A stretch of 61,990 nucleotides of DNA. It comes from a virus. A program made the translations under genes and the position numbers. The notes below the pieces were generated by a model, which saw nothing but the letters and a program-made list of their open reading frames with translations, had not been told where the DNA came from and ran no database searches. The stretch is from positions 1-61,990 of the IMG/VR virus record IMGVR_UViG_3300004461_001625; one strand, written 5' to 3'. Positions 20,222-26,629 of the stretch are shown here, in pieces. Within the stretch, counting starts at the first letter, position 1; each line of letters opens with the position of its first letter.

Positions 20222-21016
20222 ATGCAAAAGAGAAGGACTGTTAGAAAAATTATACAGGAACCTAATGCTATTGAATATAAGACTAATATTCAACGTAGAA
20301 ATACAAAAGAAGATAAAAGAAGCCCTTTTGTAAAACCACCATCACACTATGTACCAAAAAATATAGAATTACAAAATGCATCACAGCCTTTAATGACTAA
20401 AATAGTTTATGCCACAGTTCCTAAATTATATGATGGAGAAACTATTTATATTATTGGAGGTGGCCCGTCATTAAAAAACTTTAAATTTGAAAGTTTGCAT
20501 GGCTGTAGAACCATTGCTATTAATAAGGCTATACTTTTTTATCCTGATGCAGATGTTTTATATTGGACCGACGGTAGATTTTATACTTGGTATAAAAATG
20601 AAGTAGATAATTATAAAGGATTAAAATATTCTTTAAAGGGTGGTGCCCAATATACACGAGATATTAATATTCTTAAGAAAGGAGAAGCACATGGCTTGTC
20701 AAAAGATCCTCAAACATTATCTCATGGTTTTAATAGTGGTTATGCAGCTATTAATTTAGCGTATCACCTAGGAGCAAAAAGAATAATACTATTAGGGTTT
20801 GATATGGGTAGTGATGGAACATTAACACATTTTCATGATGGATACCCAAGCAGGTCTACAGGTGAAGCTATTTATAGAGATAGATTTATACCTTCATTTA
20901 ATGAATTAAAGACTGATATTAAAGAACTTAATTTAACTATATTAAATGCATCACCCTATAGTAAGTTAAATGTATTTCCAAAAATTACGTTAGATCAGGC
21001 ATTAAGTTTTAGATGA
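20222..21016 (+). CDS. DUF115/MptE-like or sialyltransferase-like protein
   Basis: The only plus-strand gene, 264 aa. After a basic N-terminal tail of about 60 residues come IYIIGGGPSLKNF (nucleotide-binding strand), TIAINKAILFYPDADVLYWTD and SGYAAINLAYHLGAKRIILLGFDMGS. This GGGPSL ... LGxxxIxLxGFDM layout occurs in the DUF115/Maf-like (6-hydroxymethylpterin kinase MptE-like) family and in CST-type sialyltransferases; both are linked to surface-sugar or flagellin glycosylation. The fold is clear, the substrate is not. It diverges from gp44 and overlaps the 3' end of the minus-strand zinc-finger gene by 15 nt. Confidence 0.62.
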   Translation: MQKRRTVRKIIQEPNAIEYKTNIQRRNTKEDKRSPFVKPPSHYVPKNIELQNASQPLMTKIVYATVPKLYDGETIYIIGGGPSLKNFKFESLHGCRTIAINKAILFYPDADVLYWTDGRFYTWYKNEVDNYKGLKYSLKGGAQYTRDINILKKGEAHGLSKDPQTLSHGFNSGYAAINLAYHLGAKRIILLGFDMGSDGTLTHFHDGYPSRSTGEAIYRDRFIPSFNELKTDIKELNLTILNASPYSKLNVFPKITLDQALSFR

Positions 21017-21493
21017 TCGTTTAGCATAGGACATAAACTCTCTTTGTTCTTTTTTAAGGAGGTGTTTACAGTGTTTAGTAAATCTAATAGATGTATCTAT
21101 AATTCTACCATCTACACTTCTGTTCCGTGAGTTATGGGCTTTAGAACATTTACTACAAACAAAATTCTCCACCTTTTTAGAATCCATTCTAGATTTAATA
21201 GGAACTTTACAAATACCACAATTCCAATCAATAAGATCTGCATCTTTTTCTAATTCTTTAAGTGTGGTAAATGTTTCTCTGAAAGGATTCCAAATAGCTT
21301 TATTAACATTCTTTTCATGGCCATTCATATCCTCTACTTTAAATATAACTTCAAAGGCTTGAGTATCAGACTCTAACCATTTCATATGACGGTTATTTAA
21401 AAGCAATTTTTGTTTTAAAGGTGGTAGATTTTCTAAAAGAATTCCATACCGCCTTTTATACCATCCGAAATTTATTTTTCTAACCTTATACAT
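21002..21493 (-). CDS. hypothetical zinc-ribbon protein
   Basis: I chose the ATG at 21493 (MYKVRKINFGWYKRR), giving 163 aa; this leaves a 4-nt gap to the upstream stop, whereas the longer frame to 21589 would overlap the upstream gene by 92 nt. The N-terminal half is basic. The C-terminal half has a four-cysteine zinc-ribbon candidate, CGIC near residue 110 and CSKC near 128, and then a basic stretch (RFTKHCKHLLKKEQRE). Zinc ribbons of this type bind nucleic acid or protein. I do not recognise the family. Its 3' end overlaps the plus-strand gene. Confidence 0.66.
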   Translation of the reverse strand: MYKVRKINFGWYKRRYGILLENLPPLKQKLLLNNRHMKWLESDTQAFEVIFKVEDMNGHEKNVNKAIWNPFRETFTTLKELEKDADLIDWNCGICKVPIKSRMDSKKVENFVCSKCSKAHNSRNRSVDGRIIDTSIRFTKHCKHLLKKEQREFMSYAKRSSKT

Positions 21494-21497
21494 TATC

Positions 21498-22562
21498 TTA
21501 AGCAAGTTTTCTAATAGGATGTCTATGTTTATCTTTTGGCCATTCCACAACCCCATCCTTAAAATAATAAACATGAGATCTATTTTCATGTGAAACTAAA
21601 TTTTCAGCTTGATGTAACCATAGATGATAATACTTTTTATAATTACTTAAATGACAAATTTGACTAAACCAATTAACACTACTTAGTCTACCTAAAAGAT
21701 ATTTAGATTTCATAAGTATAAGTAAATCTAAAACAGCATCTTGGTAAAATAATGGATCACGAAATGCGGCTTGTAAACTATTTACTCCTTCTCCTCCTTG
21801 AAATTCTTTTTGAGAAAGATCATTAGAAGATTCATTTAGATATTTACTATCTCGCCATATAAGCTTGTGTTTTTTATTAGAAAATTCTTTTTGTAATGAT
21901 AGTGCGTCTTCTCTGTTATCTGTGGCTACATAAATATAATCTACTTCAGGATTTTCAGAAAGTGCCCGTTTGATAAGTTCTTTATATTTTTTAAATACTT
22001 CACGATTGTAATCTTTAAATAATTTAATTTTACCTTCTTTAGATAAATTACTATCAGAGTCTTTTCTTAGTTTACTTACAGTATTAACATCAGTCATTCT
22101 TAAATGAATTCCTAAAACATTGGTAGAATTATTAAAATTATTCTCATAGAATAAATTTGCATTTTCTATAAGCTCAGGTTTAAATTTTATTTGTTTAGAG
22201 GTTTCACGAGCAAGTTTCATATAGGTAGCTAAATCTTCATAATACGTAACATGAAGATTTGTATATGGTCCTTGAGTATTTTTTTGATCTTGGAATGGAA
22301 TAGGTTCTTGGTCGAGTATAGAATCAAAAAAGTTATGGTGTGATAGCGACATAAATGAAGTAGCACCACCAGTAGCTGTAACTGGTCTAATAGAAAAATA
22401 AGGAACTTCTCTCGGATTATAAAAAGAGTTTAATTGTTTACCATCAATTATCATATTTGCTGTATCTATTGACATTATATTATCTCGTCTCATTAAATAT
22501 TCCATTAATATCATAAAGTGAGAAAATATACCACCTCCACCAGTCCTAATAATTTGCTTCAT
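21498..22562 (-). CDS. fucosyltransferase-fold glycosyltransferase
   Basis: This 354-aa protein contains NVLGIHLRMTDVNTVSKL (about residues 147-164) and VDYIYVATDNREDALSLQKEF (about 211-231), then a region ending LLGRLSSVNWFSQICHL. This is the H-x-R-x-T-D plus 'ATD' pattern of the GDP-fucose-type GT-B superfamily (GT11/GT23/NodZ-like). The same pattern recurs in the C-terminal half of the 625-aa protein at 51502. The N terminus TGGGGIFSHFMI fits the first Rossmann loop. It probably transfers a deoxy-sugar; donor and acceptor are unknown. It shares a block with a sulfotransferase. Confidence 0.7.
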   Translation of the reverse strand: MKQIIRTGGGGIFSHFMILMEYLMRRDNIMSIDTANMIIDGKQLNSFYNPREVPYFSIRPVTATGGATSFMSLSHHNFFDSILDQEPIPFQDQKNTQGPYTNLHVTYYEDLATYMKLARETSKQIKFKPELIENANLFYENNFNNSTNVLGIHLRMTDVNTVSKLRKDSDSNLSKEGKIKLFKDYNREVFKKYKELIKRALSENPEVDYIYVATDNREDALSLQKEFSNKKHKLIWRDSKYLNESSNDLSQKEFQGGEGVNSLQAAFRDPLFYQDAVLDLLILMKSKYLLGRLSSVNWFSQICHLSNYKKYYHLWLHQAENLVSHENRSHVYYFKDGVVEWPKDKHRHPIRKLA

Positions 22563-22570
22563 AATTGTTA

Positions 22571-23239
22571 TTATAAATTATTCCAGTGATTAAGAATATG
22601 TTTTAATTCTGTATTGGCTAATTCTACTTGAGAAGGTGTCCATACAGATTCCCACGTACTTAAACCGTTACCTACATGATTTCCATGAATATGTGTTCCA
22701 TCTTCCCATGAATGAAAATCTTTATATTTTGATTGTATAGATTTTATTGATTCTTTAGAATATTCCTTTTTAATTAAATCTCTAATTTCATTATTAATTT
22801 TACCATTAAAAGATTTTTCTAAAATATTAAATAAGTAATCAAAATCTTCATGCCAATTTTCATATTTTAAAACTATTTTATTTTCATTTTCATTTTCACA
22901 TTGAATAATATCCCAATAAGTTGGAATTATCCATTGACGAGATATAAATTTAATTCTTGATTCAACACTTATTAATGGCTCATTTCGATTATTAAAATCA
23001 TCTTCATATAATCTTATAAATGAAATGACTACATCCCTCGGATCTCGCCATGTAGTAATTAAATAAGAATCTTTATTAGATATCTTTTCCCAAGAATGCG
23101 CACCTTTACCAGGTGTTATATCATAGCGATAATCCCAATCCTTAAAACATCTATATTCATTAAATAATTTATTAAGAATTAATCGAAGAACAGTAGTTCC
23201 AGATCTCATCATACTTTTTTGTATTAAGGTTCTTTTCAT
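22571..23239 (-). CDS. sulfotransferase (PAPS-dependent)
   Basis: This 222-aa protein has the three sulfotransferase signatures in order: the 5'-phosphosulfate loop SMMRSGTTVLRL (residues 9-20), the 3'-phosphate strand TTWRDPRDVVISF (63-74), and a C-terminal HVGNGLSTWESVWTPSQVE (about 193-211), which parallels the family's GxxGxW...T motif. It would move sulfate from PAPS onto a hydroxyl or amine, probably of a sugar given the adjacent glycosyltransferase-like gene. No signal peptide, so it acts in the cytoplasm. Somewhat shorter than animal cytosolic enzymes (about 290 aa). Confidence 0.8.
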   Translation of the reverse strand: MKRTLIQKSMMRSGTTVLRLILNKLFNEYRCFKDWDYRYDITPGKGAHSWEKISNKDSYLITTWRDPRDVVISFIRLYEDDFNNRNEPLISVESRIKFISRQWIIPTYWDIIQCENENENKIVLKYENWHEDFDYLFNILEKSFNGKINNEIRDLIKKEYSKESIKSIQSKYKDFHSWEDGTHIHGNHVGNGLSTWESVWTPSQVELANTELKHILNHWNNL

Positions 23240-23264: not shown

Positions 23265-23295
23265 AACAAAAGAGCTAAAGTAGCCCTTTTTTGTT
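23265..23295 (-). terminator. Rho-independent terminator after the cysteine-rich gene
   Basis: The minus strand folds as AAAAAGGGCTA-CTT-TAGCTCTTTT with one mismatch, followed by TGTTATTT. It lies 23 nt after the stop of the 21-residue cysteine-rich gene and would end that late transcript before the sulfotransferase gene. Confidence 0.6.
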
Positions 23296-23318: not shown

Positions 23319-23384
23319 TTAACAGTTACAACATGTACAATCACATGATGAACCACAGTTACATACTTTACAATCGCATTTCAT
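23319..23384 (-). CDS. 21-residue metallothionein-like cysteine-rich protein
   Basis: ATG at 23384 opens a 21-codon frame ending TAA at 23319. Nine of 21 residues are cysteine, arranged as KCDCKVCNC, then GSSCDCTCCNC. C-x-C, C-x-x-C and CC spacings are the metal-binding pattern of metallothioneins. Such a frame is very unlikely by chance. It begins 14 nt after the stop of the 401-aa gene upstream, follows it in the same operon, and has no Shine-Dalgarno sequence but an A/T-rich leader. A metal chelator or zinc store is inferred. It is far shorter than known bacterial metallothioneins (about 50-60 aa). Confidence 0.62.
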   Translation of the reverse strand: MKCDCKVCNCGSSCDCTCCNC

Positions 23385-23398
23385 ATTAATAATTATTT

Positions 23399-24604
23399 TT
23401 ACAGGGTTTTTCTTAATCTTGCAAATTTCTGAGAAACAGATTCAGCTACATAATCAAAAGATTCTGGTATTTTACCTTTAGTTGCTTTAACATCTGAAAA
23501 CATGTATTCTCGCATTTTATCTTTTCTTGCATCAGCTAATGAATTTTCCCACCCGTTAATAGTATCTTCTATATCTCTTTTCATTACTCTTTTCATCTTA
23601 AGTCTTTTCAGAGCTAATGTTTTAAGTTCTTTTTCATCAGGTGCCTGGATACCTTTACGAATACCTTTTCTAATATCATCTAATAACATATTAGTAAGTT
23701 GATCGGCGGTATACATACCTTCATTAACAGCATTAGCCTCAGATTCAAATACAGACAATTCAGATTCTATAATAGCAACATATTTATCATCTAAGAAAGA
23801 TTCCCATGATTCTGCTTGTAAGCTATCTATTTTTTGTTGATATTTTTTTTTCTTTTCTTCGTCATCGGTTTTATCTAAAAGGTCTTGGTATCTTTTAAGT
23901 TTTCCTTCTTTACTATTTTTAGCCTTTTGTTCAGGTGTTAGTTCAGTTTGACCAGTTTGTTTAGTATCATCTGTCTTTGGTTTTTCCTCTGTCTTTGGTT
24001 TTTCCTCTGCTGCTGGAGTTTTCTCTGCTGCTGGAGTTTTCTCTGCTGCTGGAGTATCATCTGTCTTTGGTTTACCATCTGTCTTTGGCTTACCTTCTCC
24101 TGCATCAAATGCAGGACCGTCATCTCCTTTTTTCTTTTCAGTTGATTCATAATCTGCTAATGCCTTTTGTTGGCCTGCAGCATCTGTTGCTAATTCCTTT
24201 TGTTTAATCTTTAATTGTTTAGCTTCTTCTCCAGTTGCAGCCTTAAGAGCAATTTGATTAGCAGCCAATGAAGCTTTAGTTTTGGCTAATTGAGCAACTC
24301 TTTTTAAACCTGTAGTTGTAGCAAGATCAGACATTCTTTGTGCTACATTTGATGCTGCATCTTTTAGTGCAGCATTTTTAGCTTTATTTGCTTGATTTAA
24401 AACTTCAATCTTTTCTTTAGGTAAATCAGCAGCTTTACCCTTTTCTTTTCTCTTTGCAAAATCTACATCATTAAGTGCTTGTGCTACTTTAGCTTTTTGA
24501 TATTTCTTTGCATTGTTTTTAATTTTTTTCCACTTAATTGGATTCTTAACGGCATCTATTAATGCTTCGTTAACAAATTCACTATATGTCTTTAATTTTG
24601 CCAT
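23399..24604 (-). CDS. Lys/Ala-rich internal or core protein candidate
   Basis: A 401-aa basic protein I cannot name. The N terminus TYSEFVNEALIDA resembles the prohead-protease-cleaved leaders of T4-like internal proteins (cleavage after Glu). Residues 20-160 are highly charged Lys/Ala coiled-coil. Residues about 165-220 are a low-complexity Pro/Lys/Thr/Glu repeat (KTDDTPAAEKTPAAEK type). The C-terminal 130 residues contain helices and ESEANAVNEG and SFDYVAESVS segments. The gene lies directly downstream of the capsid gene, separated by a terminator, with its own late promoter candidate. An internal, core or DNA-condensing head protein is the best guess. Confidence 0.6.
   Translation of the reverse strand: MAKLKTYSEFVNEALIDAVKNPIKWKKIKNNAKKYQKAKVAQALNDVDFAKRKEKGKAADLPKEKIEVLNQANKAKNAALKDAASNVAQRMSDLATTTGLKRVAQLAKTKASLAANQIALKAATGEEAKQLKIKQKELATDAAGQQKALADYESTEKKKGDDGPAFDAGEGKPKTDGKPKTDDTPAAEKTPAAEKTPAAEEKPKTEEKPKTDDTKQTGQTELTPEQKAKNSKEGKLKRYQDLLDKTDDEEKKKKYQQKIDSLQAESWESFLDDKYVAIIESELSVFESEANAVNEGMYTADQLTNMLLDDIRKGIRKGIQAPDEKELKTLALKRLKMKRVMKRDIEDTINGWENSLADARKDKMREYMFSDVKATKGKIPESFDYVAESVSQKFARLRKTL
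23960..24100 (-). repeat. in-frame low-complexity tandem repeats
   Basis: The stretch encodes repeats of KTPAAE, KPKTEE and KPKTDD units. On the plus strand TCTGTCTTTGG and TCTGCTGCTGGAG recur three to five times. Such repeats expand and contract by slippage and encode a disordered linker. Confidence 0.7.
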
Positions 24605-24637: not shown

Positions 24638-24654
24638 AGAGATGTAAGAACAAA

Positions 24655-24678
24655 AAAGCCACCCCGAAGAGTGGCTTT
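24655..24678 (-). terminator. Rho-independent terminator after capsid gene, TTCG loop
   Basis: On the minus strand, AAAGCCACTC, TTCG, GGGTGGCTTT form a 10-bp stem with the stable UUCG tetraloop and a T run after it. It lies 28 nt after the capsid gene stop. Confidence 0.93.
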
Positions 24679-24706
24679 CTATATAAAGATATTACTTTGA
24701 TATAAA

Positions 24707-26629
24707 TTATATCAGAGAAGCACCAGCATTAAAGTTGAAGCCCATTGTGTAATACATTAATTCTGGATTAAATCCTGCATCTACTAAAGCAAATCTAGAC
24801 TTAATAGCGATTTTCGGCGCCATTGTTCCTTCTGCGATAGTTTCTACAGATTCAGCCATTAAGTATGGCATAAATACTAATCCTGGAGAATTACCATCAC
24901 CTTTACGTCCTACACAAATTGTATAGTCATTAAAAGCTCTGTTAGGATCTACATAAATTGTTACCCCAGCAATTGCACCGATTGGATATAAAGATCCACC
25001 AGCTTGGTTAACTGTATTAGATAACGGATATGCAATAAATCCAGCCACAGATTGAAGAGCAGTTGCCATTTCTCCACCTGTTACTGCAAACGTTGCAGGT
25101 CCTCTTCTTCCTCTAGTAGCAATTAAGTTACTTGCAGCAAGAATTTTAGTATAGATTCTACGTTGTACATCACCTTGAGTTGAACCACCCTGAGCAACAG
25201 ATGTAAACTGAGCAATTGCTTGCGCCTGGTTTGCATTAGTTGTATTGTTTGGTCCTAAGTTGACAGCAACACCAGCACCAGCACCTACAGCAGTAGTAAA
25301 TGATGCAGATAATGTAGTAGCGTTAATACCAAAGATATTTACAGCGTTAGTTGTTCCATTTCTGAAAATTCTGTCTAGGATGTATTTATTGATAGATTGA
25401 GTTAACTCATTTACCAATACAGCCTCAACTTGAGCAACAGCATCAATTCCGAATTGCTTCAGATCTTGAACTTGTTCTCTAGTCACAGCAGCAGCAACTT
25501 GGAAAGTTTCAGCAGCTACAGACTTGTTGAATAAGCTTAGTCCCATGATGTTATCAACAGTAGATTCACCTACACCTCTTTGGTAAGGATCGTTTCCGTT
25601 AATATTCTCAGTTCCAAAAGCAGGGAAGCCAGTTGCAGGGTCGTTAGTTGGTTGGAAAGCATTACCAGAAAAACCAGTAATATGATCTTCCAAAGCTTTA
25701 ACTAAACCTAAACTTGGAGCAGCAGCACATGATGCCATTACAGTAATAGTTGCACCAGCACCCATATCGGTTGCAGCAGAACCAGCTCTTACTGATGTAG
25801 CTAAAGCTCTTGCTAATCCATAAAGCTTACATGTTGCAGAACCAGCTACAGCAGCAGCAGGTTGAGCTACAATTGAATTATAGATTGTTGATGCAGCTAA
25901 TTCAGAACCTTGAGCATAATTAGATCCAACGTTAGTTGAAGTTGCTCCTAAGTTTGTATTAGCAGTTGTTAAACCTTGTGCAGTATTGTTAGCTCTAACT
26001 CTGAATATTTGTAAACCATCGATTCTTGATACACCTACAAAAGTAAGTTCATAAGAAGCAAAAGCTAAATTCGCAGCTACTGGAGTTAACGCAGTTGATG
26101 ATGAGTTGTATTGATCAGCATATAATACATCATTTACTAAGAAAGCAGTTCCATCATTATTAGTTGCACTAAATTTAATTAGTAATGGAGCAGCAGATGT
26201 ATCTAAAGCGCCGTTAACAGGAGCTCCTGATCCTCTACCTCCACCGTATACAAAGTCTAGGTAAGTTAAAACTCCCATTGGGCCTTGCATTGGTACTACA
26301 GGTACTAAGTCTAAACCTACAGTCTGAGCAGCTACTTGCATTGCAAGTGGTAGCAAAGAAAAAGGTCTGTCACCAGATCCAGTAGCTTGTGCTGGGAAAG
26401 CATTCATTGATCCAGGGTTTCCTGGCAATGTTACGTTCCCCATACTTTGAACATTCATGTTCGGGTTAAGGTGTACAGTATTGTAAACACTCTCATTAAG
26501 ATTATGGTAATGGCAGTACTTAGACATCCAAGATAACTTAGACTTTTCAGTAATTCCAGTACTTTCCTCAATAACAGGTCCCCAAGTCTTTTGAACCTCA
26601 GCCTCGTTGATTAATTGATTTGCGTACAT
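24707..26629 (-). CDS. major capsid protein (gp23-like)
   Basis: This 640-aa protein has the gp23 pattern after residue 85: SGDRPFSLLPLAMQVAAQTV, GLDLVPVVPMQGPMGVLTYLDF, later QVAAAVTREQVQDLKQFGIDAV, then RRGPATFAVTGGEMATAL, GVTIYVDPNR and GLVFMPYLMAESV, ending NPELMYYTMGF. T4 gp23 is 521 aa, so this has extra loop segments. The N terminus LINEAEVQKTWGP contains a Glu-Ala site that could be cut by the prohead protease. It forms the hexamers of the head. A TTCG hairpin terminator follows it. No TATATAAA element lies directly before it, but a small hairpin sits about 28 nt upstream of the ATG. Confidence 0.94.
   Translation of the reverse strand: MYANQLINEAEVQKTWGPVIEESTGITEKSKLSWMSKYCHYHNLNESVYNTVHLNPNMNVQSMGNVTLPGNPGSMNAFPAQATGSGDRPFSLLPLAMQVAAQTVGLDLVPVVPMQGPMGVLTYLDFVYGGGRGSGAPVNGALDTSAAPLLIKFSATNNDGTAFLVNDVLYADQYNSSSTALTPVAANLAFASYELTFVGVSRIDGLQIFRVRANNTAQGLTTANTNLGATSTNVGSNYAQGSELAASTIYNSIVAQPAAAVAGSATCKLYGLARALATSVRAGSAATDMGAGATITVMASCAAAPSLGLVKALEDHITGFSGNAFQPTNDPATGFPAFGTENINGNDPYQRGVGESTVDNIMGLSLFNKSVAAETFQVAAAVTREQVQDLKQFGIDAVAQVEAVLVNELTQSINKYILDRIFRNGTTNAVNIFGINATTLSASFTTAVGAGAGVAVNLGPNNTTNANQAQAIAQFTSVAQGGSTQGDVQRRIYTKILAASNLIATRGRRGPATFAVTGGEMATALQSVAGFIAYPLSNTVNQAGGSLYPIGAIAGVTIYVDPNRAFNDYTICVGRKGDGNSPGLVFMPYLMAESVETIAEGTMAPKIAIKSRFALVDAGFNPELMYYTMGFNFNAGASLI

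Follow-up and report, generated by a model that had tools for sequence, protein, structure and literature searches.

A 21-residue, nine-cysteine metallothionein-like gene shared by T4-like phages and a small-genome flavobacterial lineage

The closest described counterparts of the gene reported here are metallothioneins (MTs). The animal MT beta domain likewise has nine Cys in a mix of CxC, CxxC, and CC and lacks aromatic residues, and its spacing, CKCKECKC...CC.C, appears to resemble that of our peptide; however, the beta domain is part of a two-domain protein, and there is no significant sequence match between the two. Among the Cys-rich metal-thiolate proteins of bacteria, which are similar in kind, MTs of the SmtA/BmtA type differ in length (50 to 80 residues), zinc-finger-like fold, and His ligands, while mycobacterial MymT, a small Cys-rich copper buffer, is more than twice as long and gave no match in family scans. 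A further bacterial example, the Pseudomonas MT PflQ2, holds a Zn3Cys9His cluster (PMC7387436). Similar in length are the Fungi-I copper MTs of Agaricus bisporus and Neurospora crassa, which are stand-alone, form a single cluster, have C-x-C pairs, share a CxCGSxCxC-like stretch with our peptide, and bind about six Cu(I) (PMC13107397). They differ in having seven Cys, no CC, and another spacing, are eukaryotic, and gave no match in a profile search. As the N. crassa protein has only 25 residues (solved structure, PDB 1t2y), the first-pass annotation of this locus overstated its case in calling the peptide far smaller than known MTs. Host-derived auxiliary genes of marine phages provide a parallel of another kind, being optional, shared with bacteria, and located in late-gene regions of T4-like phages. 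Our analysis indicates, with a probability that we put at about 70%, that the locus is a genuine gene for a one-cluster MT-like peptide and a host-shared, optional phage auxiliary gene that buffers metal.

The gene lies in a 62-kb viral record that was analyzed over its whole length of 61,990 nucleotides (the window) and that carries T4-type genes for a Gp23 capsid protein, an S77/S80 protease, a T4-type portal, a terminase, and a sheath. It runs on the minus strand from an ATG at 23384 to a TAA ending at 23319 and translates as MKCDCKVCNCGSSCDCTCCNC; the plus strand across 23319 to 23384 has two stops. This translation bears out the frame originally annotated at these coordinates, with its start and stop codons, 21 residues, and nine Cys in C-x-C, C-x-x-C, and CC spacings, and places it on the minus strand. 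Cys accounts for 43% of the peptide versus 0.8% of residues in 47 minus-strand frames of the window. The window contains a single instance of the nine-Cys pattern followed by a stop, and 100 dinucleotide shuffles gave no instance at all (expected number, 0). The ATG is preceded by an A/T-rich leader (23385 to 23398, minus strand; AAATAATTATTAAT, part of the clade-shared AAAATAATTATTAAT) in which no Shine-Dalgarno sequence is present. The annotated distance of 14 nt to the preceding gene is exact, counted from the stop of the 401-residue gene at 23399 to 24604, and the annotated terminator corresponds to a terminator-like hairpin 3' of the gene at 23290 to 23268 (minus strand; local fold z = -3.1).

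Scanning IMG/VR for the Cys pattern gave at least 120 stretches, and poly-Cys repeats were removed. At least 68 distinct phage homologs, 20 to 23 residues long, share C-x-C-xx-C-x-C-xxx-C-x-C-x-CC-x-C-stop and, among the sequences aligned, show no gap after the first Cys. As these homologs at large were gathered by the nine-Cys pattern, their Cys invariance is partly a selection of the data and diversity in Cys number is underestimated; the window clade and the bacterial genus described below are the less biased sets for Cys conservation. There are at least eight kinds of gene neighborhood in phages, among them positions after a scaffold-like gene (window clade), upstream of a DnaG-type primase, and close to tail sheath genes or small late genes. 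In 27 loci (e.g., L322, L328, L334, L356, L379, and L384), the gene precedes a phage NAD/FAD oxidoreductase, typically by ~180 nt, and genes for an AAA_28 protein and a terminase come next. Placement in the head operon, as first proposed, thus holds for the window clade and fails elsewhere, where the gene precedes the FAD oxidoreductase or the primase, follows tail genes, or sits in a bacterial chromosome. Of 73 distinct phage copies, 69 have the end of a same-strand ORF within 60 nt upstream, so close that the gene looks cotranscribed. The oxidoreductase downstream of the gene is distantly related to an annotated Campylobacter phage dehydrogenase.

Among eight complete reference phages, seven of them named isolates, every match to a loose version of the pattern was either interrupted by a stop or lacked a start codon, and no cultured phage is known to carry the gene. 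One carrier group has a primase sharing 65% identity with the primase of the cultured Flavobacterium phage immuto, which lacks the gene at the corresponding place beside the primase. A tblastn search with the 21-mer gave no match in collections of phages and plasmids, where low-complexity filtering may mask the query, and blastn with the 66-nt consensus returned chance matches only (E of 0.5 to 6). The literature searched yielded no phage MT, and the gene may be listed unnamed among the small phage genes of Fremin et al. (2022).

In several respects the peptides resemble the MT class. They are short and very Cys-rich, with CxC, CxxC, and CC arrangements (at least 68 phage variants and 18 bacterial orthologs), their spacer residues are free to vary, and aromatics are near absent, only 1 of the at least 68 phage peptides having aromatic or His residues. 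The odd number of Cys and the C-x-C pairs suit a metal cluster better than disulfides, and a metal-thiolate cluster also fits the fixed spacing, the free spacers, and the scarcity of aromatics. All nine Cys are retained in the window clade and the bacterial genus, with the sole exception of a Cys16His change in phages L043 and L044. Members having a codon that begins with a base other than T in place of Cys3, Cys10, or Cys16 were sought across the whole collection; none of the matches for Cys3 or Cys10 was genuine, and Cys16 yielded only Cys-to-His (L043, L044, L475, and L498). Since His can replace Cys at a metal, not in a disulfide, and the change needs two base changes, Cys16His favors a metal-ligand role, although as a sign of a metal-thiolate cluster it is suggestive only. 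The description "metallothionein-like" is thus well supported, resting on an invariant nine-Cys scaffold, variable spacers, few aromatics, and, at the three positions scanned, tolerance of Cys-to-His alone.

The same cannot be said of membership in a described family. Pfam gave no significant match, with weak similarity to Metallothio_2 only (7 of 40 members; best E, 0.54), NCBIfam and PHROGs gave no match, and a PDB profile search retrieved no chain up to an E of 10, 1t2y included. The peptides fall outside SmtA/BmtA, having no Pfam or NCBIfam match and a length of 20 to 23 residues versus near 50 to 60, and outside the Fungi-I copper MTs, having nine rather than seven Cys, other spacing, and no sequence match. 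No metal-related neighbor gene or metal-responsive promoter was identified. Because no known MT sequence model matches significantly, we describe the peptide as one that works like an MT, not as a member of a known MT family.

A very high density of thiols, together with the position ahead of a phage NAD/FAD oxidoreductase in the 27 loci, could also point to a redox or thiol buffer, whose Cys would act in infection as oxidant scavengers or maintain thiols in the reduced state and would bind metal only secondarily. MTs generally are able to scavenge oxygen and nitrogen species (PMC7387436). Such a function does not need an exact nine-Cys spacing, yet the spacing is fixed after the first Cys in the compared sequences; moreover, Cys-to-His was kept once, and a CxxC-thioredoxin-like context is lacking. 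We therefore regard redox buffering as a doubtful primary role and retain metal binding as the preferred one.

The genes around the locus bear on whether the peptide acts in the virion. By capsid protein, the nearest references to the window are an uncultured 462-kb phage and Lak phages, followed by Tenacibaculum phages and other Bacteroidota phages. The major capsid gene (Pfam Gp23; 24707 to 26629, minus strand) is followed by a terminator-like hairpin (24653 to 24680, minus strand), so the upstream gene and the nine-Cys gene possibly form a unit of their own. That upstream gene (23399 to 24604, minus strand), directly after the major capsid gene, encodes a K/E-rich protein of 401 residues that has no Pfam or PHROG match; its N terminus, MAKLKTYSEFVNEA, appears to resemble the T4 capsid-targeting sequence, and the protein is probably a scaffold or internal head protein. 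The first-pass view of it as structural accordingly agrees with its place after the major capsid protein and gains nothing from Pfam or PHROG families. Its length differs widely among relatives.

Relatives were retrieved with the capsid protein as the query, and 47 of the 80 loci obtained reach far enough beyond the capsid gene to score. In 27 of the 47, the nine-Cys gene follows the same upstream gene or gene pair, so the frame proposed in the first-pass annotation does recur in related phages; the remaining 20 lack it, with flanks intact. Empty sites are marked by the gene that lies directly 3' of the nine-Cys gene in most relatives (in the window, 21002 to 21589, minus strand; MYKVRKINFGWYKRRYG...). 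One empty site, in L018, retains AACTGTTAA, the final nine bases of the gene, and in L029 and L030 the upstream stop is fused directly to the downstream leader, which indicates deletions. In others without the gene, the start codon of the next gene overlaps the stop codon of the preceding one and no trace of the gene is seen. Given 27 loci with and 20 without it at the same site, the gene is an optional cassette or cargo, not an essential head gene. The window also has, between the nine-Cys gene and the gene following it in most relatives, a sulfotransferase-like gene (PF00685, at the cutoff; 22571 to 23239, minus strand). Most relatives have no sulfotransferase-like gene at this position, so the site 3' of the nine-Cys gene collects cargo. 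A terminator-like hairpin precedes this sulfotransferase-like gene. An O-fucosyltransferase-like gene (PF10250, just over the cutoff) lies at 21498 to 22562 of the window, and in L033, L034, L035, and L041 a MKQIIRTGGGGIFSHF gene of the O-fucosyltransferase-like kind comes immediately after the nine-Cys gene.

The first-pass annotation had suggested metal transport in the virion, by which a packaged or head-bound peptide would deliver metal or thiols with the DNA. In the window clade, the gene's place immediately 3' of what is probably a scaffold or internal head gene is consistent with this, as is, in other phages, the position after genes near the tail sheath or after small late genes. The intact flanks of the 20 relatives without the gene leave the suggestion unsupported, the peptide has no capsid-targeting N terminus, its neighbors differ between phage groups, and bacteria possess it without a phage context; a virion carrier is thus very unlikely. 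As the main reading, virion transport was rejected on presence and absence among relatives.

Genuine bacterial matches occur in 4 of 397 Flavobacteriaceae genomes. In the genus of one of these genomes (G361), whose members have genomes of 0.8 to 1.3 Mb, 18 of 25 genomes carry a syntenic copy between a Na/Ca exchanger gene and, where the locus is long enough, a pirin gene, beside a tRNA-Arg. The other seven assemblies may simply miss the region, because the flanking exchanger gene is not matched there either; where the flanking locus was found, the gene is present in 18 of 18 genomes. One copy (L457) has ATA in place of the ATG of the others, and its start is uncertain. A second genus has the gene in 2 of 22 genomes, at two different sites. 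Bacteroidota-wide and order-wide genome samples held no further true copies, and a pattern scan of genome contigs gave only poly-Cys repeats among the matches listed. The bacterial homologs are chromosomal and outside prophages, adjoining tRNA, Na/Ca exchanger, and pirin genes. The tRNA genes beside them (L445 to L448 and L452 to L467) are Arg-acg in the main genus and Val-gac in L446, and the copy in L445 is preceded by a tRNA-like 3' end. This proximity may hint at tRNA-associated integration. Many of the genus's copies (e.g., L456 and L466) are preceded by an ORF of 119 to 122 residues that has no convincing Pfam match, ends 24 to 31 nt before the gene, and may form an operon with it.

Two traits of phage auxiliary genes are thus seen, a bacterial chromosomal homolog outside prophages and presence or absence among near relatives. 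Being fixed in bacteria and patchy in phages, the gene is best read as a host-shared auxiliary gene, probably metal buffering. Small accessory phage proteins often target hosts, and optional presence in phages would also suit a peptide that removes zinc or copper from a metalloprotein or regulator of the host, or one that blocks the host peptide by mimicry. However, the same peptide is an ordinary conserved bacterial gene, and reinforcing a host function is the simpler interpretation, making host takeover very improbable indeed.

Selection was assessed in the two less biased sets. Mean dN divided by mean dS gives 0.21 for 14 distinct sequences of the window clade and 0.16 for 18 sequences of the bacterial genus. 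In both sets, Cys codons alternate between TGT and TGC and nearly all non-Cys aligned positions are variable; length changes are of whole codons only, ahead of the first Cys. Purifying selection acts at the protein level. That the frame is no gene, being instead a Cys-rich frame that arose by chance or a conserved DNA or RNA element, is barely credible: its 21 codons and missing Shine-Dalgarno sequence stand against zero expected occurrences in shuffles, the same peptide in unrelated neighborhoods, a dN/dS of about 0.2, synonymous wobble in Cys codons, and whole-codon length changes before the first Cys. A chance frame was rejected on the shuffles (0 of 100) and a conserved nucleic acid element on dN/dS.

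The nine-Cys frame is a real protein-coding gene of phages and bacteria, optional in phages, with its Cys under purifying selection. Under the metal-buffering reading, nine thiolates in 21 residues would wrap a small metal-thiolate cluster and serve as a cytosolic thiol and metal buffer; by analogy, the cluster might hold three Zn or Cd if it follows the nine-Cys domains, with Zn3Cys9His in the Pseudomonas MT (PMC7387436) as a precedent, or some six Cu(I), the number bound by the seven-Cys MTs of Neurospora and other fungi (PMC13107397). A small-genome Flavobacteriaceae lineage has the gene as a fixed chromosomal one, and T4-like phages, for which such bacteria are the probable hosts, carry it as an optional gene shared with them, at the ends of late-gene units. 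Made in the infected cell, presumably with the late genes, the peptide would hold down the concentration of free metal, with Cu(I) or Zn as the probable metal, during virion assembly. We further consider it reasonably probable that these peptides constitute an undescribed MT family that ranks, at 20 to 23 residues and about 43% Cys, with the smallest and most Cys-dense gene-encoded ones and that is fixed in the small-genome flavobacterial lineage and widely present in T4-like phages as a metal-buffering auxiliary gene.

Cys-rich genes of 21 codons escape gene callers and low-complexity filters. Although absent from every family library searched, this one turns up again and again in contigs of uncultured phages, and one bacterial genus has it as a fixed gene. 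If the peptide binds metal, phages carry metal-buffering genes, and it is among the shortest natural peptides to build a nine-thiolate cluster. One may also ask what need infected flavobacteria have of additional metal or thiol buffering.

A longer form is also found. In L339, the frame ending in the pattern match at 795 to 854 is an extended Cys-rich copy of 36 residues, MRNRQNCNCENCKCQKACNCMKCNCSKSCDCACCDC, apparently a partial duplication, and this copy shows that extensions of the family exist. In the group B phages, some members of c4, a family of longer proteins encoded nearby (e.g., at about -1.4 kb from the nine-Cys gene), begin with a Cys cluster of their own, MCNCGCNSCDS or MCDCGCNTCET.
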